Shown piece by piece: positions 4,651-16,877 of a DNA stretch of 52,261 bases (positions are counted from its first letter, which is position 1; each line of letters begins with the position of its first letter). Made by a program: the position numbers and the translations under genes. Below the pieces are notes generated by a model, which saw only the letters and a list, made by a program, of their open reading frames with translations, was not told where the DNA came from and searched no databases. Origin of the DNA: an uncultured Flammeovirgaceae bacterium (lineage in GTDB: Bacteria > Bacteroidota > Bacteroidia > Cytophagales > Cyclobacteriaceae); contig CAKZYA010000019.1 in the NCBI GenBank assembly GCA_937883755.1, forward strand, positions 1-52,261, given 5' to 3'.

Positions 4651-5628
4651 ATGAGTAACAAAATCATCCGGTGGGGCATGATTGGCGCGGGCGATGTAGC
4701 CGAAGTAAAAAGTGGTCCGGCCTTTCAAAGAGTAGAGCACTCTCAATTAGTAGCTCTAATGCGGCGTAACACTGAAAAGGCCGCTGATTTTGCTCGTCGT
4801 CATCAGGTTCCTGAGTGGTACGATGATGCCGCCAAGATGCTCGGGCAAGCTGACATTAACGCCGTTTACATCGCTACCCCACCCGATTCGCATCTAGAGT
4901 ACGCCCTAATGGCATTGGAAGCAGGGAAAGATGTATACTTAGAAAAGCCGATGGCGATGAGTGTCGAGGAATGTCAAACTATAAATAAAGCCGTAGCCCA
5001 AAGTGGCCGTAAATTGGTAATAGCTCACTATCGCCGAGCATTACCGGCTTTCCAAAAAGTAAAAGATCTACTGGAAGAAGGGGCGATCGGCACTCCTAAA
5101 CTAGCGTTGCTACGGATTTTGCAACCTGCTAAGTCATCCATCATCGCTCAAACTGAAACCAACTGGCGGGTACAGCCCGAAGTATCGGGGGGTGGACTAT
5201 TTCACGATATTGCCCCTCATCAGATTGATTTGATGTTGAACTACTTTGGTAATCCAATTTCTTTCGCTGGCAATTCCCTAAATCAAGCTAATTTATATGA
5301 AGCCGATGATACGGTAAATGGTACTATCGTTTTTGAGAATCAGGTTTTGTTTCAAGGAACCTGGTGTTTTTCAGTGCCCGAAGCTTTTGCTCAAGAAGAA
5401 GTGCAAATTGTCGGCAGCGAAGGAAAAATTACGTTTACTTTTTACGGTAGCGAGATTCATCTTCGGCAGGGCGACCAGCAGCAAACATTCTCTTTTGATC
5501 ATCCACCCCATATTCAACAACCCATGATTGAGCAAGTGGTTAGTTACTTTCGGGGCGAAGCCGGAAACCCTTGTTCGGGTGAGGTTGGGGAAGAGGTAAT
5601 TCAGATTATGGAGGCTTTTAGTGCCTAA
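4651..5628 (+). CDS. Gfo/Idh/MocA family NAD(P)-dependent oxidoreductase
   Basis: 325 residues. The N-terminal Rossmann fold has IGAGDVA (11-17) and the EKPMA motif (98-102), whose Lys is the conserved catalytic residue of this family. The C-terminal alpha/beta domain holds GGGLFHDIAPHQID (180-193) with the conserved D and H of the active site. Such enzymes oxidise or reduce sugars, inositols or related polyols with NAD(P). The substrate cannot be told. It is divergent from the membrane-protein operon with about 100 bp between them and seems monocistronic. Confidence 0.9.
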   Translation: MSNKIIRWGMIGAGDVAEVKSGPAFQRVEHSQLVALMRRNTEKAADFARRHQVPEWYDDAAKMLGQADINAVYIATPPDSHLEYALMALEAGKDVYLEKPMAMSVEECQTINKAVAQSGRKLVIAHYRRALPAFQKVKDLLEEGAIGTPKLALLRILQPAKSSIIAQTETNWRVQPEVSGGGLFHDIAPHQIDLMLNYFGNPISFAGNSLNQANLYEADDTVNGTIVFENQVLFQGTWCFSVPEAFAQEEVQIVGSEGKITFTFYGSEIHLRQGDQQQTFSFDHPPHIQQPMIEQVVSYFRGEAGNPCSGEVGEEVIQIMEAFSA

Positions 5629-5673
5629 GATTTTATGACACTGAAAATCACTTATTTTAGAAAGTGAGTTAAC

Positions 5674-6147
5674 ATGAGAAGGGTCTATTTGCTACTTCTG
5701 GTATGGTTGACTACCACTATAAATGCTTGTACTCAGCCGTCTGACCAGCTAATTGCCGACCGCTTAGCATTCTGTGATTCTAATTTTCCTGAAAATTTGA
5801 TTCCGGAATTAAAAGAAGAGTTTAATCAACTAGAGCAGTACTTTGTTCAGTCTGGATTACTTACGGATAAATCAGGGGAAAGCTACTATACTGTTTATCA
5901 GAAGATTAGTAAAGAAAATGATCTAATATTCAATAGGACTCAGTTTTTTCCAATACTTGATTCCTTAGATTATTTTCTACTGCAAAAGTGCTTCTACAAG
6001 TTACTTACTGAAAAGCAACTATTGGAAATGACCCCTCGCCATCTTAAAGCTACTGAAGCGATTGCTCAAGCTTACGAAGGAAATGTAACTCCTGGAATGA
6101 TAACTAAACGAATTACAGATAGAAGTGATTTAAACTTTTGGTATTAG
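5674..6147 (+). CDS. putative lipoprotein, unknown function
   Basis: 157 residues beginning with a hydrophobic signal segment ending INAC (Cys19), so probably a lipoprotein. The rest is acidic and helical (ELKEEFNQLEQYF, KISKENDLIF, LLTEKQLLEM), with no domain I recognise. It lies 45 bp after the oxidoreductase; the spacer holds a hairpin (TCACTT 5648-5653 with AAGTGA 5662-5667). Bacteroidota carry many such short lineage-specific lipoproteins. Confidence 0.6.
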   Translation: MRRVYLLLLVWLTTTINACTQPSDQLIADRLAFCDSNFPENLIPELKEEFNQLEQYFVQSGLLTDKSGESYYTVYQKISKENDLIFNRTQFFPILDSLDYFLLQKCFYKLLTEKQLLEMTPRHLKATEAIAQAYEGNVTPGMITKRITDRSDLNFWY

Positions 6148-6377
6148 ATTCATAGGAATAGCTTCATACTCAGTAAGTTTAAGTGATACAAAGTATAGCA
6201 TAAATTGTATCAAAAGCTGAGCAAATTATTCGTTTTAATGAATTGAAAATCAAAGCTTTAGCATAAATATTCTCTAAAAAGTTTAAATCACTTTATAATC
6301 TAACACCCGATGACTTCAACCTGGAATACTACCGGATTTCTTCACTCCTGATATTTCATTACCTAACGACAACTTAC

Positions 6378-6737
6378 ATGCCACTCGATCAACCAGAAAC
6401 GGATTTATCCGATAAGGAAGTACTGCTAATTGAAATAAACGGAGATCAAATTACTGCCTCGAGCAAACCGATAACAATAAATCAACTTACAGATGTAATT
6501 AATGACTTCACCGTCGAATTTTCAGACAAAAAAGTGATTAAAATTGTCTCCACCCGAGACACTGGATACGATCTTCACCTTAGAGTGATAGATCTCGCTA
6601 ATGCGACTTTTGATGAACATAGGAATAAATTGGCTCAAGAAAAATTTTCTACTGAATATTCAGCATTATCGGCTCAGCAAAAGCAAGAGATTGATGATAC
6701 TATACCTAAGAATATTATAATAAGTGAGCCACAATAA
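6378..6737 (+). CDS. ExbD/TolR periplasmic domain lacking its membrane anchor (probable remnant)
   Basis: 119 residues matching only the C-terminal periplasmic part of Bacteroidota ExbD: the beta-strand block VLLIEINGDQI, the LTDVINDF helix, KVIKIVSTRDTGYDLHLRVID and a C-terminal extension (KFSTEYSALSAQQKQEI, PKNIIISEPQ) typical of Bacteroidota ExbD. Full ExbD has an N-terminal tail and one transmembrane helix feeding on the ExbB proton channel; both are absent after the only ATG. The same frame stays open upstream to 6267 without ATG/GTG/TTG and encodes LLIFHYLTTTY just before the Met, resembling the end of the ExbD helix. I take it as a 5'-truncated exbD paralogue. No exbB or tonB is adjacent. 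Confidence 0.55.
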   Translation: MPLDQPETDLSDKEVLLIEINGDQITASSKPITINQLTDVINDFTVEFSDKKVIKIVSTRDTGYDLHLRVIDLANATFDEHRNKLAQEKFSTEYSALSAQQKQEIDDTIPKNIIISEPQ

Positions 6738-6771
6738 CTAGGAAATTATTGGTTATCAGGAGCTGTATTTC

Positions 6772-7206
6772 CTACCCACTATGTTCTACCACAATTCCTT
6801 CATTGGCTATCTCCATTGATTCAATTACTACTTCGCTGGCTGATGCTTTTAAATCAGACCAGGTAACTTTTACCGGAAAAGCGTTGCGTACCTTCCAAAC
6901 GACCACTGGCTCGTGGGCTTCATTTAGTAGGCTGATGATAATATCCCTTCGTTCAACCTTGTTCAGGGCAATGGAATTCCACCAATCGTAAAACTCATTA
7001 TCACCCGAAACTACACCACGTTTTAAGATGATATTACTGAACTTGGGACGTCCCGGCATCTTAATTGATCCGTGCTCAACGAGACTACCTTCGCGGTACT
7101 CAATAACTTCAACATCAAAACTTAGGTTCTGTACTTCAGAAAAGCCTATTCTCGTCCCACCCCAATCTACCTGAAAATGAAATTTTGGAAGCGGATACTG
7201 TGCCAT
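6772..7206 (-). CDS. phage-like tail tube protein (T4 gp19 / eCIS tube family)
   Basis: 144 residues of the T4-like tail tube family also found as inner-tube subunits of extracellular contractile injection systems (Afp1/Pvc1) and Hcp-like tubes. Visible hallmarks are PLPKFHFQVDWGG at the N-terminus, GFSEVQNLSFDVEVIEYREG, MPGRPKFSNIILKRGV, FYDWWNSI and the C-terminal VIESMEIANEGI. Size is normal for the family. No sheath, baseplate, spike, ATPase or other tail gene is present within the window, so this is an orphan. It lies 4 bp downstream of an unknown gene with which it must be co-transcribed. Confidence 0.85.
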   Translation of the reverse strand: MAQYPLPKFHFQVDWGGTRIGFSEVQNLSFDVEVIEYREGSLVEHGSIKMPGRPKFSNIILKRGVVSGDNEFYDWWNSIALNKVERRDIIISLLNEAHEPVVVWKVRNAFPVKVTWSDLKASASEVVIESMEIANEGIVVEHSG

Positions 7207-7210
7207 ATTT

Positions 7211-7606
7211 TTACGGTTTTAAAATGATAGGTAAGTCGTGGTATATCGCTAAATCGTGGATAATTTCTTTCTTGAAGAATTTTCGCTCGGCATTGTAACA
7301 GAGAATAGTAAACTGAACGATGGTTTTCTCGAGAGTACTCAAAAACTGGGATGCTTCATCAATATACAGCAAAAATTCTTTCTTTGGGGCAAAGTAGGCG
7401 AGTTTCCGAAAGAGATTGATTTGTGCTAAATCCTTCGACTGATTTAAGGCTAAAATTGGCTGACTAAAATTAACTGATACATCATATGCTTCAGCATCAG
7501 AAATGTTAGCAAAACGGAGATATAACTTCTCTCCTACTAATACAAAATCAATAAGCAAGTTAGGCAGCTGCCGATCCATTACCATTGGGAAAACGTGGTT
7601 GCTCAT
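7211..7606 (-). CDS. unknown protein paired with the tail tube gene
   Basis: 131 residues, no family recognised. The sequence alternates hydrophobic strands (LLIDFVLVGEKLYLRFAN, YDVSVNFSQPIL, EFLLYIDEA, IVQFTILCYNA), suggesting a beta-sandwich. No signal peptide or transmembrane helix is seen. It is the first gene of the two-gene unit with the tail-tube protein, so a role as adaptor, chaperone or cap of the tube is a reasonable guess, but only from position. Confidence 0.55.
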   Translation of the reverse strand: MSNHVFPMVMDRQLPNLLIDFVLVGEKLYLRFANISDAEAYDVSVNFSQPILALNQSKDLAQINLFRKLAYFAPKKEFLLYIDEASQFLSTLEKTIVQFTILCYNAERKFFKKEIIHDLAIYHDLPIILKP

Positions 7607-7831: not shown

Positions 7832-8212
7832 ATGTACAGCGTAATTATTCGCGATCACATGATGATTGCCCATTCATTAGATAGTGAAGCCTTCGGTCCG
7901 GCTCAGAAACTGCACGGAGCTACCTACGTAGTAGATGCCGAATTTAAGACTGAGCAGTTGGATGAAAATAATATCGTTATTGATATTGATATTGCTACCA
8001 AAGAATTGCAAAAAGCACTGTCTCCTCTCAAGTACCAGAACCTGGATAACTTAGAACAGTTTAATGGCAAACTAACCACTACTGAGTTTTTGGCAAAATA
8101 TGTTCACGACACGATTAGCAATGCTGTTCGCAGTCGGTTTAACGGGAGCTTGAAAATCACATTGGGCGAATCGCACGTAGCCTGGGCTACTTATGAAGCT
8201 CCTATAAAGTAA
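7832..8212 (+). CDS. 6-pyruvoyl-tetrahydropterin synthase/QueD homologue with altered active site
   Basis: 126 residues with the PTPS/QueD fold. Canonical enzymes use three Zn-binding His and a Cys; here H14 and H28 remain, but the motif is FGPAQKLHGATY (21-32) instead of C-x3-HGHxY, so the catalytic Cys maps to Ala24 and the third His to Ala30. T83/E85 and E113/H115 of the second half are kept. It is therefore unlikely to be a normal queuosine or biopterin enzyme. I recall a near-identical FGPAQ-LHGAT variant in actinobacterial clusters with the same glycosyltransferase and methyltransferase that follow here; that needs a database check. Confidence 0.8.
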   Translation: MYSVIIRDHMMIAHSLDSEAFGPAQKLHGATYVVDAEFKTEQLDENNIVIDIDIATKELQKALSPLKYQNLDNLEQFNGKLTTTEFLAKYVHDTISNAVRSRFNGSLKITLGESHVAWATYEAPIK

Positions 8213-8286
8213 TCTATACTGTTTGCTACTAAGGCAGACTATCTTAACGAACGTAGAACACCAATATATTCTTGACTAATATTACA

Positions 8287-8814
8287 ATGAAAGAATACTT
8301 TCGCCGTCCTCTTTTTTTCCTTTTACTTTTTATTAAGCTAATAACGGGTCTCTCTGTAGTAGCTCAATCAACAGTAGCTATCCAAAATATTGGTTCGTCG
8401 AACACTGATCAAGCTATTATCAATAATAGTGAGAGATATGATGTTAAACCGGATCAACTTTTATCGGTTGATGCACTATTATCAGGAACACCCGAAGAAG
8501 TAGTACAGCGACAGCTCAACGCTTACAATGCCCGAGATATTGATGCTTTTCTTGCTACCTACTCTGACAGCGTGGAAGTTTGTAACTTTCCTAACCAACT
8601 TTCCATGAAGGGAAAAGAAGAAATGCGGGTTACCTATACCGGATTATTTGAGAGAGCACCTAACCTGCACGCTGAAATAAAGAATAGAATAGTCATTGGA
8701 AATAAAGTGATTGATGAGGAATGTGTGCGAGCTGGCGAACGCTTTTTCAGTGCAGTAGCCATCTACGAAGTAGCTGACGGAAAAATTATACGAGTAACGT
8801 TTGTTCGAGGCTGA
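8287..8814 (+). CDS. secreted SnoaL/NTF2-like protein
   Basis: A TTG codon at 8272 is in frame, but ATG 8287 gives a clean signal peptide (KEYFRRPLFFLLLFIKL, cleavage near VVAQS), so I prefer it: 175 residues. After a 40-residue linker comes a SnoaL/NTF2-like domain (about residues 78-175): VVQRQLNAYNARDIDAFLATY, MKGKEEMRVTYTGLF and VADGKIIRVTFVRG. These domains are cone-shaped folds that bind small hydrophobic molecules or act as isomerases or cyclases; the ligand is unknown. It lies 60-70 bp from both neighbours on the same strand, inside the pterin-homologue/glycosyltransferase cluster. Confidence 0.75.
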   Translation: MKEYFRRPLFFLLLFIKLITGLSVVAQSTVAIQNIGSSNTDQAIINNSERYDVKPDQLLSVDALLSGTPEEVVQRQLNAYNARDIDAFLATYSDSVEVCNFPNQLSMKGKEEMRVTYTGLFERAPNLHAEIKNRIVIGNKVIDEECVRAGERFFSAVAIYEVADGKIIRVTFVRG

Positions 8815-8876
8815 TACGGGTAGAAGATAAAAACCTACTCCCTGCTCAGAATTATCTACGAAGATCCAATAAAGTA

Positions 8877-9902
8877 ATGCGCCTGCCTTGGTACTTTGTG
8901 CTACCGAAAGAAAGAAGCCAACCTTCGGGTGGGAATATTTATAATGAGCGCATTATTCAGGCACTCCGGCAAGCAGAACAATCGGTAGAAATTATTTCAG
9001 CAAACGATTACCTACGAGCAATTTATCAAGGTCAGTCAGGTACTTATTGGGTAGATACTCTGATCTTAGAATCTATCCGGGAAGTATTATTACTACAACC
9101 ATTCCGGGCACGTTCACTGCTTATTGCTCATCATCTGGAAAGTCTAGCTCCACCCGCAGGACAATCTGCCAAAGACCTTCGGGCAAAAGAGAAACCCTGG
9201 TTAGACTGGTTTCAGGGTTTTTTAGCAACTAGCCACTTCACAAAAGCTTATCTCTTAGAACAGAGAGTTTCTCAATCCATTATAGTCGCTGAGCCGGGTA
9301 CTGATATTTCTGCCAACAATATTCCCGATCGGGATACAACTACCATTCGGGTTCTAATAGTCGCTAATTTAGTAGAGCGGAAAGGTATATTACCTTGGTT
9401 GAAATGGCTAGCAAAGAACCTGAAAGACCGTGATCAATTCTCGCTAACGATCGTGGGGCGAACGGATATTGAGCCAGCTTACGCTCAATACTGCCAGTCT
9501 ACGATAGAAAATCACCCGATGCTGCGTAAACAACTCCGCTTAGTCGGCAGTCAGCCCTCGCACCAAATGGCTGCTTTTTATCAGAAATCTAATCTATTTA
9601 TTTCAGTTGCTTCTATGGAAACCTTCGGGATGGCATTACAAGAAGCTCGGATGTATCGCCTGCCGATATTAGCTCTGGAGGGAGGATATAGTGCCCATCA
9701 TGTTGAGGCAGGAGACAACGGGTACGTATTTAACAATGTGCTTTCGCTGGGAGATTTTTTCCTGAATTTGATACGGGAACCCGCAAAATTTACTACTTTA
9801 TACCAACGAACCCAACAGGATTCGGTCACTTACTCAAGTTGGTCGCAAACTGCCCGTTCGCTCGTTCAGCAATTTGATCAATTTTTTCGCTATGCACCTT
9901 AA
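8877..9902 (+). CDS. GT4-like glycosyltransferase
   Basis: 341 residues of the GT-B fold. The N-terminal acceptor-side motif QPSGGNIYNERII (15-27) recalls the PSGGN start of a glycosyltransferase subgroup I know from actinobacterial clusters of unknown product. The C-terminal donor domain shows IRVLIVANLVERKGI, LTIVGRTD and SMETFGMALQEARMYRLPI, the usual E-x7-E-like loop that holds the nucleotide-sugar. No transmembrane helix; cytoplasmic. Its end overlaps the methyltransferase gene by 11 bp, so the two are coupled. Confidence 0.85.
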   Translation: MRLPWYFVLPKERSQPSGGNIYNERIIQALRQAEQSVEIISANDYLRAIYQGQSGTYWVDTLILESIREVLLLQPFRARSLLIAHHLESLAPPAGQSAKDLRAKEKPWLDWFQGFLATSHFTKAYLLEQRVSQSIIVAEPGTDISANNIPDRDTTTIRVLIVANLVERKGILPWLKWLAKNLKDRDQFSLTIVGRTDIEPAYAQYCQSTIENHPMLRKQLRLVGSQPSHQMAAFYQKSNLFISVASMETFGMALQEARMYRLPILALEGGYSAHHVEAGDNGYVFNNVLSLGDFFLNLIREPAKFTTLYQRTQQDSVTYSSWSQTARSLVQQFDQFFRYAP

Positions 9903-10770
9903 CTATGATGACCCAATCGCCTGGCTCGACCATCGATACACCTGCGACGTGCAAGCCCGTAACGCCAGCATTGAGAAGAAATTTGTTTCTTTTTTTAACC
10001 CCCATGAGTCCGTATTACATATCACTGACGTTGGAGCGGGCACAGCTACCAATGTATGCTACTATTTTGATAAACTAAAACATCAGCAAGAGTGGACGTT
10101 GATTGAACGATACGATTTTCTACTGCAAGCAGCTCGTGAACGACTGAGAAAACTTGCTGAACAGCAGGGGTATTTATGGGATGAACAATCGGATCGGGTC
10201 CAACTCATTGATAATAATAAAAGAGCAACTATTCGGTTTGTTAACGGAGACGTAGAGCATTTGGAAGAGCTGACAGATATGGAGCAGACCGATGTACTGG
10301 TTGCCAATGCTTTTTACGACCTTATTTCTTTCGATCAGTTTGATGCCCTTATTGGTAAGATTGCTCGCCACAACATCGCTTTTTTGTCTACCCTTAATTA
10401 CTACGAGACCTCATTCTACCCGTTTCAAGAAGAAGATCACCAGGTTATGCGCTGGTATCATATGCACATGAAGCGTCCGCAGCCCTTCGGTATTGCTATG
10501 GGTGCTGACTGCTGCGAAGAAATGTTGGACTTGCTTACCCAGCATCACCTCATGATTGAGCAGGAGAGCAGTCAATGGCACCTAAAGCGAAGTAATACGA
10601 CGATGCAGCATTATATTTTGCATTTTATAGAAATTGCTTTGGCTGAGCTGAATCTGACTTTTGAAGAACAAGACCTGTTCAGCCAGTGGTTAAAGACCCG
10701 CAAAAAACAACTACACGATCGCTCTCTGGAAATCATTGTTGACCACAACGATATTTTCGCTACCGAGTAG
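9892..10770 (+). CDS. class I SAM-dependent methyltransferase-like protein
   Basis: The in-frame TTG at 9874 lies deeper in the glycosyltransferase gene; ATG 9892 is the better start (292 residues). Residues 9-25 (IAWLDHRYTCDVQARNA) resemble the WL-x-R-x-P-x-D-x2-AR opening of the methyltransferases I recall beside the PSGGN glycosyltransferase. The SAM motif is DVGAGTATN (46-54), with an acidic motif II at TLIERYDFLL and motif IV near DVLVANAFYDLI. The acceptor is unknown; the overlap with the glycosyltransferase suggests it modifies the same product. Confidence 0.75.
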   Translation: MHLNYDDPIAWLDHRYTCDVQARNASIEKKFVSFFNPHESVLHITDVGAGTATNVCYYFDKLKHQQEWTLIERYDFLLQAARERLRKLAEQQGYLWDEQSDRVQLIDNNKRATIRFVNGDVEHLEELTDMEQTDVLVANAFYDLISFDQFDALIGKIARHNIAFLSTLNYYETSFYPFQEEDHQVMRWYHMHMKRPQPFGIAMGADCCEEMLDLLTQHHLMIEQESSQWHLKRSNTTMQHYILHFIEIALAELNLTFEEQDLFSQWLKTRKKQLHDRSLEIIVDHNDIFATE

Positions 10771-10772
10771 TA

Positions 10773-11078
10773 CTACTTTTCCCAAACTACCGAAGTAGGC
10801 CTATAATGCTTCATCTCCTGAATATTATTATAGTAAGGGCGAATATGCCCTAAGAACTTACTAAAGTCGCTGCTTTTGCGGAAGCCATTCAAATGGTCTT
10901 GCGTGGATGTCCAGGTGATTCTTAAAATGAAATTGTTGGGTTCTTCTTCGCCCTGTGTCAAATCATAACCCAAACAAACTGGTGAAACTTGAAGAAACTC
11001 AGCTGCCTTAGCATAATCGCTTAGAAATTGCTCATGCTGGCTAACTGGTATAGTATAGCGAATATATTCAATACTCAT
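10773..11078 (-). CDS. antibiotic-biosynthesis-monooxygenase (ABM) domain protein
   Basis: Starting at ATG 11078 gives 101 residues, the normal size of ABM-fold proteins (SIEYIRYTIP, FLSDYAKAAEFLQVSPVCLGYDL, FILRITWTSTQDHLNGFRKS, IRPYYNNIQEMKHYRPT). An earlier in-frame ATG at 11171 would add a hydrophobic 31-residue leader (YLLSAPIYLGFLFLF), possibly a signal peptide, so export cannot be excluded. ABM proteins are dimeric ferredoxin-like folds acting as cofactor-free monooxygenases or haem/quinone-related enzymes. It is divergent from the HxlR regulator, which probably controls it, and ends 2 bp from the methyltransferase on the other strand. Confidence 0.8.
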   Translation of the reverse strand: MSIEYIRYTIPVSQHEQFLSDYAKAAEFLQVSPVCLGYDLTQGEEEPNNFILRITWTSTQDHLNGFRKSSDFSKFLGHIRPYYNNIQEMKHYRPTSVVWEK

Positions 11079-11391
11079 ATTAGAAAAATTGGAGGTTAAG
11101 TCGTTGCTAGAGGAACTTCCCATAAACAGGAATAAAAAGCCAAGATAAATAGGCGCAGACAGAAGATACATAACCTTGTTATTTTATTGCTTTTATGATA
11201 TATAAGAGCCGTCCGCTTCACCCTGGCCTATTCGTATACGGATGAGGTGATGGTAGACATTTGTTTTACGTTTTTGCCTATTTTTAGCTTAAGGTAATAG
11301 CTTCTTTTTGCAAAAGAAAGAACGGACTGACAAGACTGTAACGGACATTCTAGTCTGTTTTGGTGATTATCAGCAAATTAAAGAATCGTCT
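11079..11391. promoter_or_regulatory. divergent ABM/hxlR intergenic region
   Basis: About 310 bp with the two preferred starts. It must carry the promoters of both genes and probably the HxlR operator. T-rich tracts are present (for example around 11258-11290), but no convincing TTTG/TAnnTTTG pair with Bacteroidota spacing was found. If the alternative long starts (11171 and TTG 11308) are used it shrinks to about 136 bp. Confidence 0.35.
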
Positions 11392-11763
11392 ATGCAGAAA
11401 AACGGAGAAAATTTTATAATTGAGGTGACCGGTAAGAGTTACTACTGTCCCGTTGAACTTTCAATGGATGTGATCGGCGGAAAATGGAAGGCTGTTATTC
11501 TGTGGTACCTCATAGATAACACCTTACGATTTCACGAGTTGAAAAAAGAAATTTCTTCCATCTCGGAGCGAGTGCTAACTCGCGAGTTGCGTCAGTTAGA
11601 AAACTATCGTCTTATCAAACGAAAAGTATACCCAGAAGTACCACCTCGGGTTGAGTATTGCCTAACGGATTTTGGTAAAAACCTGATTCCGCTGCTTAAT
11701 CAAATTAGTAAGTTTGGTGAGACTTATGCCAAGAACTACGGAGAAATCAGAAAAGATTCTTGA
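11392..11763 (+). CDS. HxlR family winged-helix transcriptional regulator
   Basis: An in-frame TTG at 11308 extends the frame, but ATG 11392 gives a typical HxlR length (123 residues). The family pattern is complete: YYCPVELSMDVIGGKWKAVIL with the conserved N-terminal Cys, then LRFHELKKEISSISERVLTREL (recognition helix region) and the wing VPPRVEYCLTDFGKNLIPLL. HxlR proteins are dimers that often sense redox or electrophiles through the Cys. Its divergent partner is the ABM monooxygenase, the usual HxlR arrangement of regulator and oxidoreductase target. Confidence 0.9.
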   Translation: MQKNGENFIIEVTGKSYYCPVELSMDVIGGKWKAVILWYLIDNTLRFHELKKEISSISERVLTRELRQLENYRLIKRKVYPEVPPRVEYCLTDFGKNLIPLLNQISKFGETYAKNYGEIRKDS

Positions 11764-11777
11764 ACATACTTGGACAA

Positions 11778-12470
11778 TTATAAGTCACTAGTTTTCCACG
11801 AACTGCGAATATCTACTATGAAAGAATAGAGGATCATAATAATAGCAGCAACGAGACACGGAACGTATGCCCAGGCAGGAAATGCAAAAGGTGCCAATAG
11901 TGTTCCCATCATCCACATTCCTACAAAGCGGCGTCGAAACGAATAGCCTACTGGAGTAGGCGGCTTATCAACGTAAGCCAGAATGATTACATAACCATAA
12001 CGCAGTAAACCGGGTAACAAGACCCAACTACTGGCCAGACCCGAAATAACTATTATGACTCCAAAGGCCAACACAAAAAACGCATCGACTTCTTTGTCAA
12101 AAACATCACCAAACTCGGAAGTAGTCTGATACTTGCGGGCGTAGTAGCCGTCTAGGCCATCTAACACTAGTACCAAAATGCCCAATACCAAAATAGCGTA
12201 AGAATGTAGTTGCGAACAAAACCCAACTAACATCGCAATTCCTAACCACCGCACTCCCGTCAGCGTATTCGCAACACCACCCATCAATCCAAACATCTGC
12301 CATTGCTCTCGATGCCAAAGTACCCAGCTAATCACGCTGATTACCGAAACCCCCAGAAACCAAAACAGAGAATTTGTAAGCACGAATAAAAAAGCCGCGA
12401 ATATCATCGCCAGTGATAAAAATTTCACACTCGTCTCCAGCGAGTGCAGGGCAATAGTAGGTTGACTCAT
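11778..12470 (-). CDS. CDP-alcohol phosphatidyltransferase family membrane enzyme
   Basis: The frame could start at GTG 12509, but ATG 12470 (SQPTIALHS) is preferred, giving 230 residues with about six transmembrane helices. The signature D-G-x2-A-R-x8-G-x3-D-x3-D is complete: DGYYARKYQTTSEFGDVFDK, then EVD. Such enzymes move a phospho-alcohol head group from a CDP-linked donor to an acceptor alcohol. The extension EVDAFFVLAFG and RYGYVIILAY with PPTPVGYSFRRR resembles the subgroup I recall in the actinobacterial PTPS-GT-MT clusters rather than PgsA or PssA. It ends 14 bp from hxlR, convergent. Confidence 0.85.
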   Translation of the reverse strand: MSQPTIALHSLETSVKFLSLAMIFAAFLFVLTNSLFWFLGVSVISVISWVLWHREQWQMFGLMGGVANTLTGVRWLGIAMLVGFCSQLHSYAILVLGILVLVLDGLDGYYARKYQTTSEFGDVFDKEVDAFFVLAFGVIIVISGLASSWVLLPGLLRYGYVIILAYVDKPPTPVGYSFRRRFVGMWMMGTLLAPFAFPAWAYVPCLVAAIIMILYSFIVDIRSSWKTSDL

Positions 12471-12677
12471 CAAACGTAATAGGTGTAAGTTGTGAAGTGT
12501 AAAGTACACCCACTAGGTTGAAAATGCAAAAAGTTAGGATGTAGGAACTATAATGCCTAGCTGATGACAATTTATCCGATTTACGGTAAAAAAAGTGACG
12601 GTTTCCAGTTACTGAACTGTCTACCGCCACTTAGATATTTACTAGTCTTCTTTACAGTACTTAAGCCAGTTTCATGC

Positions 12678-12887
12678 TCACGCCTTTTTTACTGAGCATG
12701 TCTTCAGGCCAAAAGGTGCGTAGAGTGGGCAAAAACTGACTAAGCTCGTCAGTACAAATACTCCAGCAAGAACTAAGAGTACAATACCCACAGTCCCGGT
12801 TAAAATACCAGTGAAATAAAGGGTTGCAATCACTGCGGCAATTATTATTCGGATAATCCGGTCGGCTGATCCCATGTTTTTTTTCAT
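12678..12887 (-). CDS. DUF2892 (YgaP-like transmembrane) protein
   Basis: 69 residues matching the DUF2892 family: an N-terminal MKKNMGSADRIIRIIIAA, two hydrophobic helices (about 12-30 and 33-52) and the terminal SFCPLYAPFGLKTC motif with two Cys. These proteins occur alone or fused to rhodanese domains (YgaP) and are thought to handle sulfur or redox species at the inner membrane. A short spacer separates it from a 31-residue membrane peptide, and a Crp/Fnr regulator follows further upstream on the same strand. Confidence 0.85.
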   Translation of the reverse strand: MKKNMGSADRIIRIIIAAVIATLYFTGILTGTVGIVLLVLAGVFVLTSLVSFCPLYAPFGLKTCSVKKA

Positions 12888-12899
12888 GATAATAGGTTT

Positions 12900-12995
12900 T
12901 TAATTTGACAAATACTGAACGAGCAGTACGGTACCTGTCACCAACGCAATGCAGGTCAGACAAACCAATAGAAATTTTACTGCTTTATTGTTCAT
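12900..12995 (-). CDS. 31-residue single-helix membrane peptide
   Basis: A short frame from ATG 12995 to TAA 12900 encodes MNNKAVKFLLVCLTCIAL, then a further hydrophobic stretch (VTGTVLLVQYL) and SN. It has a positive N-terminus and one transmembrane segment with two Cys inside it. It lies 12 bp upstream of the DUF2892 start and 55 bp after the Crp/Fnr stop, all on one strand, so it may be a small membrane peptide of the same operon. No homologue is recalled with certainty. Confidence 0.45.
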   Translation of the reverse strand: MNNKAVKFLLVCLTCIALVTGTVLLVQYLSN

Positions 12996-13050
12996 GCTTT
13001 TTGTCAAAACTACTCATAGGGTAGCTGCTATGCAGTGACCATTGTCACCA

Positions 13051-13677
13051 CTACAGTATTTTTATACTATTAGTACCTTGTACTACTTTTCCTTCTTTCT
13101 CGAGTTTTTTCATTATTCTGCTTATTACCTCCCGAGCGGTTCCTAGTTCATTGGCAATCTGACGATGCGATATTTTCAGTGGGTTTTTGTTGGTCAAGCT
13201 TACTTTTTCTTTTAGATAATCGTACAGTCGTTTATCCATCTTATCAAACAACAGGTGATTGATGGTTTCAAGCAATTCGCTGTACCGCAGATTGTACTGC
13301 TGAAAAAACAAAGTATTAATATCTGGGAATTGCCGAGTCCAGCTACTGACTTTATCAGCTGGAAGCAGCAAAGCCGTAGTATCTTCTTCGGTGTATGCAA
13401 ACACTTTACTAGGCTCATTCTTCAAACTAGCCGAGAATGACATGATGCAACTTTCATTAGGCTTGATATAATACAGCAGTAGCTCCTTCCCCTCGTAGCT
13501 AGTAAAAACCCGGATTAATCCTTTTAAGACAACCGGAACCACTTTTACGTACTGCCCTTCTCTAAGTATCTCAGTGTTTTTCGGAATGTCTTGGGTAGAG
13601 CCCGAAACCATTATTTCTGAGACCAGATCAGGATTTAAACTTGACAGGGCACGAGATATGTCCGGTTTTGTAATCAT
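13051..13677 (-). CDS. Crp/Fnr family transcriptional regulator
   Basis: 208 residues: an N-terminal cyclic-nucleotide-binding-like beta-barrel (about 15-125; ILREGQYVKVVPVVLKGLIRVF, YIKPNESCIMSF) and a C-terminal helix-turn-helix (about 165-205; ISHRQIANELGTAREVISRIMK). No N-terminal Cys cluster for an Fe-S centre is present, so the signal is not oxygen by the FNR mechanism. The DUF2892 gene and membrane peptide downstream on the same strand are probable targets. Confidence 0.9.
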   Translation of the reverse strand: MITKPDISRALSSLNPDLVSEIMVSGSTQDIPKNTEILREGQYVKVVPVVLKGLIRVFTSYEGKELLLYYIKPNESCIMSFSASLKNEPSKVFAYTEEDTTALLLPADKVSSWTRQFPDINTLFFQQYNLRYSELLETINHLLFDKMDKRLYDYLKEKVSLTNKNPLKISHRQIANELGTAREVISRIMKKLEKEGKVVQGTNSIKIL

Positions 13678-16358: not shown

Positions 16359-16877
16359 TCAGTGTTTGGTCACTCTACTAGCATTTGCCCATTCACTGCG
16401 ATTCCAATGAGGACATCTCCCACCGATACTGCCAACCTCTAAATCTGGATCGTGGGATTGTAACATACAAATCAATCGCTGATCTACTAACAGCCAATCC
16501 CAAGCAACTGTCGAGATCGTATCTAGCAATGCCTCACTAAATTGTTTATTATCAGAATAAAAACTATCAAACCGACGAAATACAATAGCTAGACCTCTGT
16601 ATCTCCGATCAAACATATCGTCTAAACAGTCTCTAAAAGCGTTGAGGTTCTCACCGTAATATTCTGGAAAATCAAAGTTCTCTTGGAGGTGCTTATGAAC
16701 TGTCTTTGAAGTCCATTTAAACATATTCATATCTAAAACCTGATATCTCAGATTATATAGTCCGTCTATATCTTCGTTCAGTATATCCTGACTAAAATAT
16801 TTTACTACTGATCCACTACGAAGAAGTAACCAATCTAAACTTGCACTTTCATCATAACTACTATTGCTACTTGCCAT
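16359..16877 (-). CDS. barstar-family (ribonuclease inhibitor) protein
   Basis: 172 residues. The barstar domain spans about 45-135: VLDMNMFKWTSKTVHKHLQ, then the family hallmark FPEYYGENLNAFRDCLDDM (70-88). Barstars bind and block secreted RNases of the barnase type; many in contact-dependent systems are immunity proteins. Here the domain has a 45-residue N-terminal and a 40-residue C-terminal extension (SIGGRCPHWNRSEWA). No RNase or polymorphic toxin gene is nearby. It sits between ABC ATPase and permease genes, 23 bp after a small antitoxin-like gene. Confidence 0.85.
   Translation of the reverse strand: MASSNSSYDESASLDWLLLRSGSVVKYFSQDILNEDIDGLYNLRYQVLDMNMFKWTSKTVHKHLQENFDFPEYYGENLNAFRDCLDDMFDRRYRGLAIVFRRFDSFYSDNKQFSEALLDTISTVAWDWLLVDQRLICMLQSHDPDLEVGSIGGRCPHWNRSEWANASRVTKH

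Follow-up and report, generated by a model that had tools for sequence, protein, structure and literature searches.

Four clustered genes of an uncultured Flammeovirgaceae bacterium as the late half of a probable pathway to a sugar-bearing, GTP-derived compound

Introduction

What do four neighbouring genes, encoding a homologue of 6-pyruvoyl-tetrahydropterin synthase (PTPS), a GT4-type glycosyltransferase (GT4), a methyltransferase (MT) and a CDP-alcohol phosphatidyltransferase (CAPT), produce together, and where is the rest of their pathway? The question is raised by a contig of 52,261 nucleotides from an uncultured Flammeovirgaceae bacterium (CAKZYA010000019.1; contig C19 of a 7.6 Mb genome), referred to below as the window. 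A first-pass annotation of this DNA had proposed an undescribed pathway, known from actinobacterial gene clusters and present here in rearranged or reduced form. These four genes are one half, by the proposed order of steps the late half, of a pathway shared among many bacteria, and the other, early half, with genes for a GTP cyclohydrolase II (GCH2), a RibD-type reductase (RIBD) and an MDR dehydrogenase (ADH), is located on another contig of the same genome, C3. The complete gene set probably builds a sugar-bearing, GTP-derived (pterin-like) compound.

The two halves of the gene set

With the ADH of Candidatus Thiodictyon as query, one strong match was obtained in the genome of the window, on contig C3, where GCH2, RIBD and ADH form a single row at about 95.7-98.2 kb on the minus strand. 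The locus is thus split and not reduced: of the two earlier suggestions, rearrangement stands and reduction was ruled out, the missing genes being found together on C3. In the relative G015 all seven genes lie in one stretch, in the order GCH2-RIBD-ADH-PTPS-GT4-MT with CAPT convergent. The row of G028 is the same except that a single additional frame separates ADH from PTPS, and CAPT is about 20 kb distant. In G003, which belongs to the same genus as the bacterium of the window, the set is split as in the window, both halves sharing a contig with about 588 kb between them; in G095, from a different family, ADH and GCH2 lie together and PTPS-GT4-MT occupies a separate contig. PTPS is not adjacent to ADH in G000-G003, and MT and CAPT are arranged tail to tail in G003, G001 and G015. 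The dehydrogenase frame of G002 (L164, 2244-3203) is broken by one stop.

Two further PF00925 genes exist in the genome, one of them in a longer frame of 395 amino acids, and the GCH2 gene on C3 is therefore read as dedicated to this set. On contig C49 of the same genome, a frame of 343 amino acids encodes another RibD. The C3 GCH2 belongs to PF00925, scores 244 bits with TIGR00505 (cut-off 205.85) and retains the zinc cysteines (C-x10-C-x-C) and the active-site Tyr (MRAY). RIBD consists of RibD_C only, without the deaminase domain of two-domain RibD, in all three proteins scanned, and its nearest solved relatives, 6p8c and 2azn, are labelled as diaminopyrimidinone- and uracil-type reductases. 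Among NCBIfam families the C3 dehydrogenase matches BchC best, yet its 63 bits fall far short of the BchC cut-off of 291. The catalytic zinc ligands of MDR dehydrogenases were not recovered: 91 of 96 aligned sequences have the Ser of an S-x-GTE motif, presumably standing at the zinc-Cys position, the motif is missing in the remaining 5, and the best Cys column reaches 67/96. The dehydrogenase seems to lack catalytic zinc.

Within the window, the four genes and their motifs were confirmed (Table 1), as was the 11-base overlap of GT4 and MT, which follows from the ATG at 9892 (the start in the open reading frame listing is a TTG at 9874). Both the E-x7-E motif and the Glycos_transf_1 domain are present in GT4. 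CAPT matches the full signature D-x2-DG-x2-AR-x8-G-x3-D-x3-D exactly, and PF01066 with 50 bits (cut-off 22). The motif PPTP, previously taken for a subgroup signature, did not hold up, since G003 has PPAP and other CAPT proteins differ too; D-x-E-x-D-A is unvarying in 8/8 aligned sequences.

Three further genes interrupt the set. A homologue of the SnoaL_2-fold protein, 56% identical, occupies the same position in G003 and was found in no other of seven relatives' stretches searched; HxlR and ABM genes were found in none of the seven. All three are best read as insertions, in line with the earlier description of a set split by these genes, with HxlR and ABM together separating MT from CAPT in this lineage. 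A Gfo/Idh/MocA gene at 4651-5628 was considered as a member and dropped: it is adjacent in G002, but the stretch from G003 contains nothing closely homologous to it.

Distribution of the gene set

Genome-wide searches for PTPS, ADH, CAPT and RIBD (GT4 and MT were left aside) covered 59 related genomes from 55 genera. PTPS, ADH and CAPT were each found in 11 of them, the same 11 in every case (8/55 genera), and scores for the long form of RIBD are 257-433 bits in the carriers and do not exceed 134 bits in the rest. The 11 carriers do not represent independent events, since the genomes are related; several of them keep the genes unlinked.

Loci beyond these relatives were collected by scanning contigs for the patterns FGPAQx[LM]HG and M[YF][STA][VIL]x[IV]RDH[MI], the former reflecting FGPAQ, the mark of the PTPS-IV subgroup of PTPS. 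At least 585 PTPS-IV-like stretches were found in one genome collection, and the best 80, those most like the window, were kept. Together with 13 plasmid loci (12 of 21 plasmid records, and L019) they make 93 mapped loci, 79 of which have 5 kb or more of sequence flanking PTPS on either side; no locus reaches further than about 10 to 12 kb in either direction. False clusters made by antisense open reading frames in GC-rich loci were filtered out. The 79 loci bear out the earlier statement that genes for a dehydrogenase, a RibD-type reductase and GCH2 accompany the four subfamilies: the core partners of PTPS are ADH (77), GT4 (73), MT (68) and CAPT (52), followed on the GTP side by GCH2 (43), RIBD (37) and a creatininase-family gene (36), the GCH2 and RIBD counts depending on score thresholds, as the initial profiles cross-matched and low GCH2 scores are partly RibD. 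Membrane-type partners are a flippase-like LPG_TM protein (44), a sulfatase-superfamily membrane protein (20) and MdoH (16), and other partners an FkbM methyltransferase (17), cytochrome b561 (10) and YceI (9). For comparison, with three PF00925 genes in 7.6 Mb, the chance that any one gene has one of them no more than 10 kb away is below 1% by our own arithmetic.

This clustering, placed earlier in actinobacteria, is not confined to them. By record titles the set occurs in nine phyla and two domains, the carriers beyond actinobacteria being Pseudomonadota, Bacteroidota, Cyanobacteriota, Gemmatimonadota, Acidobacteriota, Planctomycetota, Spirochaetota and haloarchaea; the labels Planctomycetota, Spirochaetota, Acidobacteriota and Gemmatimonadota come from genomes assembled out of metagenomes. 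The fullest locus, on a plasmid of Rhizobium sp. SL42, has eleven genes in about 10 kb, listed in the order sulfatase, LPG_TM, FkbM, CAPT, GCH2, ADH, PTPS, GT4, MT, RibD and cytochrome b561, and an Agrobacterium pAt plasmid carries ten of these eleven (both are among three plasmid records that were added later and lie outside the count of 93). A plasmid of Streptomyces globisporus has a RibD gene inside the locus.

The neighbourhood is more than chance, given that four families share the same 11 of 59 genomes and that it recurs in distant phyla. The opposite explanation, a chance gathering of housekeeping-like genes (QueD, PgsA, a general methyltransferase), could appeal to the common housekeeping relatives that each protein has. 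The window proteins are well under the NCBIfam equivalog cut-offs (PTPS: QueD 38 vs 89 bits; CAPT: PgsA 38 vs 109 and PssA 26 vs 107), and these scores, along with the identical distribution and the recurring neighbourhoods, leave that explanation next to no credence; it was ruled out. Unlinked QueD- or PgsA-like homologues without co-occurrence, the outcome named in advance as fatal to the first-pass annotation, are clearly not what the genomes contain.

Wider samples give a second PTPS subtype in the same setting. Among 395 Bacteroidota, the genome of the window included, PTPS-IV was found in 2 and ADH in 10, i.e. the same 2 and 8 more; in the four of these eight whose loci were read (G250, G254, G309 and G383), ADH adjoins a PTPS of the second subtype, with GCH2, RIBD, GT4 or MT also nearby. 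Among 396 Actinomycetota, ADH (at least 200 bits) occurs in 42, and in 31 of them a PTPS match is directly adjacent on the same strand, as counted by hand from coordinates. Nine of these matches are PTPS-IV and 22 are weaker, and all seven of the weaker ones that were read belong to the second subtype. Together with the stretches of G704 and G576, two further ADH genomes in which a weak PTPS match became visible on reading, these make nine. RIBD, ADH, PTPS and GT4 are present in 9/9 second-subtype actinobacterial stretches and GCH2 in 2; CAPT or MT was detected in none of the nine, where diverged ones could escape. A tenth stretch, L156, has a weak secondary ADH match and no partner genes. Overall, the second subtype was seen beside ADH in L132, L133, L134, L137, L149-L155, L157 and L158.

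Pairwise distances between loci correlate between families for all 15 pairs (rho 0.57-0.89), also when only cross-phylum pairs are taken (0.33-0.81). Such correlations are expected under co-inheritance, and common species history contributes to them too.

Residues of PTPS-IV and relation to known systems

The PTPS of the window carries FGPAQ at residues 21-25 and thus the signature of PTPS-IV, a subgroup of COG0720. Compared with solved structures, the PTPS-IV profile matches 3D7J (SCO6650 of Streptomyces coelicolor, likewise FGPAQ) with 195 bits, the next being 2g64, a putative PTPS, with 37 bits. The paper on 3D7J is said to describe a protein with no zinc and no triad in which the pterin site is kept. 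Relative to 2g64, the zinc motif H-G-H has become H-G-A, and D-H-x-N-L-D has become K-Y-x-N-L-D. In all 103 PTPS-IV sequences the catalytic Cys before HGH is missing (F-G-P/S-A-Q), the zinc ligands His14 and His28 are kept and the third zinc His is replaced by Ala30; the Asp/His dyad is likewise replaced, with Tyr at the His position in 93/103. Glu113, which we take to be equivalent to the pterin-anchoring Glu of PTPS, is unvarying (103/103), as are Asn70, Leu71, Asp72 and Glu85. For residues that are part of the scan patterns, FGPAQ among them, invariance is partly due to selection. PTPS-IV shares with 6-pyruvoyl-tetrahydropterin synthase and QueD the fold family and the positions of the first two zinc-His and the anchoring Glu, but differs from them in the Cys region, the third zinc-His and the dyad. 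The second subtype has FGPA, with H-G-H in 7/9 actinobacterial sequences read and H-A-H in the other 2, and two haloarchaeal PTPS have H-S-H. Since these forms keep the third His, its loss in PTPS-IV looks derived, i.e. later than the loss of Cys in the family.

A PTPS/QueD homologue adjoining a GTP cyclohydrolase gene is also what a pathway to a 7-deazapurine-type natural product would offer. We consider this very unlikely, as PTPS-IV has neither the Cys nor the Asp/His of QueD and no QueE- or QueC-like family is among those recurrent neighbours that were identified (not all were).

The claim that the pathway is undescribed holds for the wider gene set, of which no description was found in the open-licence literature. 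It does not hold for the FGPAQ subgroup and its PF00925/RibD_C neighbourhood: a cluster of 561 FGPAQ sequences near these families was reported in 2017 (PMC5445326, section 19), and structure 3D7J had been solved. That section contains no mention of GT4, MT, ADH, CAPT, split loci or haloarchaeal members, and it names PF00925 as GTP cyclohydrolase I/FolE2. According to Pfam, PF00925 is GTP cyclohydrolase II, and reading it as GCH2, not FolE2, changes how the PTPS-IV neighbourhood is understood.

A second alternative, a branch of flavin or deazaflavin (F0/F420) synthesis, would account for GCH2 and RibD_C as riboflavin-pathway families, and PTPS-IV has indeed been listed for archaeal F420 synthesis, from unpublished data, in PMC5041015. 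Against it stand the second RibD and the two further GCH2 genes already in the genome; moreover, neither lumazine nor riboflavin synthase is among the recurrent neighbours identified, several families, mainly of Streptomyces, being unidentified and F420 genes not having been searched. We regard this branch as unlikely.

GCH2 active site and the creatininase-family gene

GCH2 from 64 loci was aligned with a clean profile, leaving out one partial or second segment each from L028, L090, L137 and L157. At the position of the active-site Tyr, 23 sequences have Met, 3 His, 37 Tyr (including the unlinked paralogue on contig C58, L162) and one Ile (L102, with a creatininase gene). A creatininase-family gene is present in 26/26 loci with Met or His, vs 8/37 with Tyr. 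That Met/His forms occur only with this gene fits a separate deformylation step and gives the proposed chemistry its most stringent check from within the data, although all of them are actinobacterial, mostly from Streptomyces, so that few independent events underlie the link. Spoonamore et al. reportedly found in 2006 that the GCH2 SCO6655 releases the formyl intermediate, as the Met form is reported to do. SCO6655 is listed as a GTP cyclohydrolase II; the Streptomyces gene order from PTPS to GCH2 fits SCO6650 to SCO6655, and 23 GCH2s of this kind have Met for Tyr. The C3 GCH2 differs from SCO6655 in keeping Tyr, and should thus finish deformylation alone. A creatininase-family formamidase, BrbF of Sinorhizobium, deformylates the formyl-diaminopyrimidine intermediate (PMC9478397). 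The one locus creatininase that was scanned scored 141 bits with MftE (below cut-off) vs 37 with ArfB.

Proposed pathway

We propose that the set encodes a dedicated pathway from GTP, via a dihydropterin-type ring, to a product that is glycosylated, methylated and, where CAPT is present, linked by it to lipid; the chances of this reading as a whole are in our judgement slightly better than even. A start from GTP through a diaminopyrimidine to a ribityl compound is likely, because GCH2 and RibD_C are present. In step 1, GCH2 would open GTP to 2,5-diamino-6-ribosylaminopyrimidinone phosphate; in many actinobacteria it probably halts at the formyl intermediate, with the creatininase-family formamidase completing the reaction. 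In step 2, the RibD_C enzyme, without deaminase domain, would reduce the ribosyl to a ribityl group. Both steps rest on published or established family functions; the subsequent ones, up to the product, we infer. The BchC-like dehydrogenase may oxidise the side chain, most simply at C2' (step 3), whereupon ring closure between the C2' ketone and the 5-amino group would give a 7,8-dihydropterin with phosphorylated side chain; step 3 would thus replace the Amadori step of GTP cyclohydrolase I. PTPS-IV, devoid of the residues for PTPS/QueD chemistry, may bind the pteridine and close or rearrange the ring (step 4). GT4 would then add a sugar (step 5) and MT a methyl group (step 6), and CAPT, where present, would join the product to a lipid from CDP-diacylglycerol (step 7). 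The flippase-like and sulfatase-superfamily membrane proteins of other lineages may serve its later handling. A phospho-linked, glycosylated, methylated, pterin-related product can reasonably be inferred.

The gene order of G015 and G028 (GCH2-RIBD-ADH-PTPS-GT4-MT) agrees with this order of steps, and in two Nostoc loci (L029 and L030, about 7.2-8.9 kb) GCH2 and RibD_C share one open frame of 582 amino acids, which would support consecutive steps. The pterin glucosylation of cyanobacteria also yields a glycosylated pterin, from pterins made by GTP cyclohydrolase I, and we know of no GCH2, dehydrogenase or CAPT in that system.

Several observations weigh against the proposed pathway. To our knowledge, no enzyme activity or expression has been reported for the set; no product is described for the wider set in the open-licence literature; and the oxidation at C2' is drawn purely from chemical reasoning. 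The membership of the set also varies. GT4 (at least 100 bits) was found in 7/11 and MT in 6/11 of the Bacteroidota relatives, being replaced or missing elsewhere. RIBD is in the locus in only 1/29 full actinobacterial loci and was dropped as an invariant member for most actinobacteria; among ten such genomes, weaker RibD-like genes, one or two per genome, occur in 9 and are missing from the tenth. In two haloarchaeal loci neither GCH2 nor RIBD is seen up to about 10 kb away, and two Streptomyces plasmids carry PTPS-IV with no partner genes detected within about 10 kb. In 11 of the 42 actinobacterial ADH genomes there is no adjacent PTPS match at the threshold (G704 and G576 show a weak one when read), and of the 56 actinobacterial genomes in which PTPS was matched, 23 gave no match to ADH, their PTPS perhaps being QueD.

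The role of CAPT is the other point against. Within 4.5 kb of PTPS, CAPT is missing from 31/79 loci, 13 of them with MdoH; the two never occur together (both 0, CAPT only 48, MdoH only 13, neither 18; Fisher 8e-7, for loci that are not independent). Moreover, a CAPT paralogue adjoins a sulfatase-type gene on contig C58 of the same genome (Table 1). Because of the CAPT-less loci, the MdoH alternative and this paralogue, CAPT may serve another purpose. Inspection of C58 by eye showed intervening genes resembling a polysaccharide flippase and a glycosyltransferase, and upstream genes resembling integrases.

These data bear on a third alternative, in which GCH2, RibD, ADH, PTPS and GT4 make a soluble pteridine glycoside that serves as a cofactor or is secreted, and CAPT is part of an envelope module of its own that happens to travel along. 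The mutual exclusion of CAPT and MdoH, the C58 pair beside polysaccharide-like genes and the nine second-subtype actinobacterial loci, with RibD-ADH-PTPS-GT4 and neither CAPT nor MT detected, would all be accommodated. It is harder to reconcile with CAPT occurring in exactly the 11 of 59 genomes with PTPS-IV, among them G002, G007 and G028, in which CAPT is 20 kb away or on a separate contig, and with CAPT distances that track those of ADH (rho 0.89) and GT4 (rho 0.88). We view the soluble glycoside as possible, if distinctly the less probable reading. Within the proposed pathway from GTP to a lipid-linked product, the combination of CAPT, flippase-like and sulfatase-superfamily proteins suggests a lipid or envelope destination, and whether the lipid link itself exists we consider close to an even call.

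A bolder version of this pathway would be a second natural route to the dihydropterin ring, independent of GTP cyclohydrolase I and leading, in several phyla and haloarchaea, to a membrane-anchored, glycosylated and methylated pteridine lipid; we think this rather improbable at present. Such a lipid could perhaps be a redox carrier or pigment, some loci adding cytochrome b561 and YceI. In any case, the gene set joins loose ends that had been separate, i.e. an unassigned COG0720 subgroup, the structure 3D7J labelled as uncharacterized, and GCH2 paralogues in which the active site is altered. As its genes co-occur even when unlinked in split genomes, the pathway can be tested step by step from GTP.

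Other features

Table 1. Genes of the window and related features on other contigs and plasmids.
Location	Feature	Coordinates	Strand	Remarks
Window (C19)	PTPS homologue, PTPS-IV (FGPAQ) subgroup	7832..8212	+	Motifs incl. FGPAQKLHGATY; PF01242 78 bits
Window (C19)	SnoaL_2-fold protein	8272..8814	+	Between PTPS and GT4; outside conserved set
Window (C19)	GT4-type glycosyltransferase	8877..9902	+	PSGGN; E-x7-E (ETFGMALQE); PF00534 63 bits
Window (C19)	Class I SAM-type methyltransferase subfamily	9892..10770	+	ATG start; domain matches weak, below cut-off
Window (C19)	ABM-domain protein	10773..11171	-	Outside conserved set
Window (C19)	HxlR-type regulator	11308..11763	+	Outside conserved set
Window (C19)	CAPT (CDP-alcohol phosphatidyltransferase)	11778..12470	-	ATG; alternative GTG start at 12509; PF01066
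C58 (L162), genome of the window	CAPT paralogue and sulfatase-superfamily membrane protein	4652-7061 and 12587-13180		Another GCH2 5.5 kb off
Streptomyces plasmid, L022	Orphan PTPS-IV	10001-10426		No partners detected
Streptomyces plasmid, L126	Orphan PTPS-IV	12001-12399		No partners detected

Single-sequence structure predictions were poor (mean pLDDT 59 and 36) and were not used. Elsewhere in the window, a T4 gp19-family tail-tube protein (PF06841, 150 bits) is encoded at 6772-7206 and adjoins a gene for a small protein of unrecognised family at 7211-7606; the two may be part of a tail or contractile injection system. A Barstar-domain protein (PF01337, 54 bits) encoded at 16359-16877 is a possible immunity protein.

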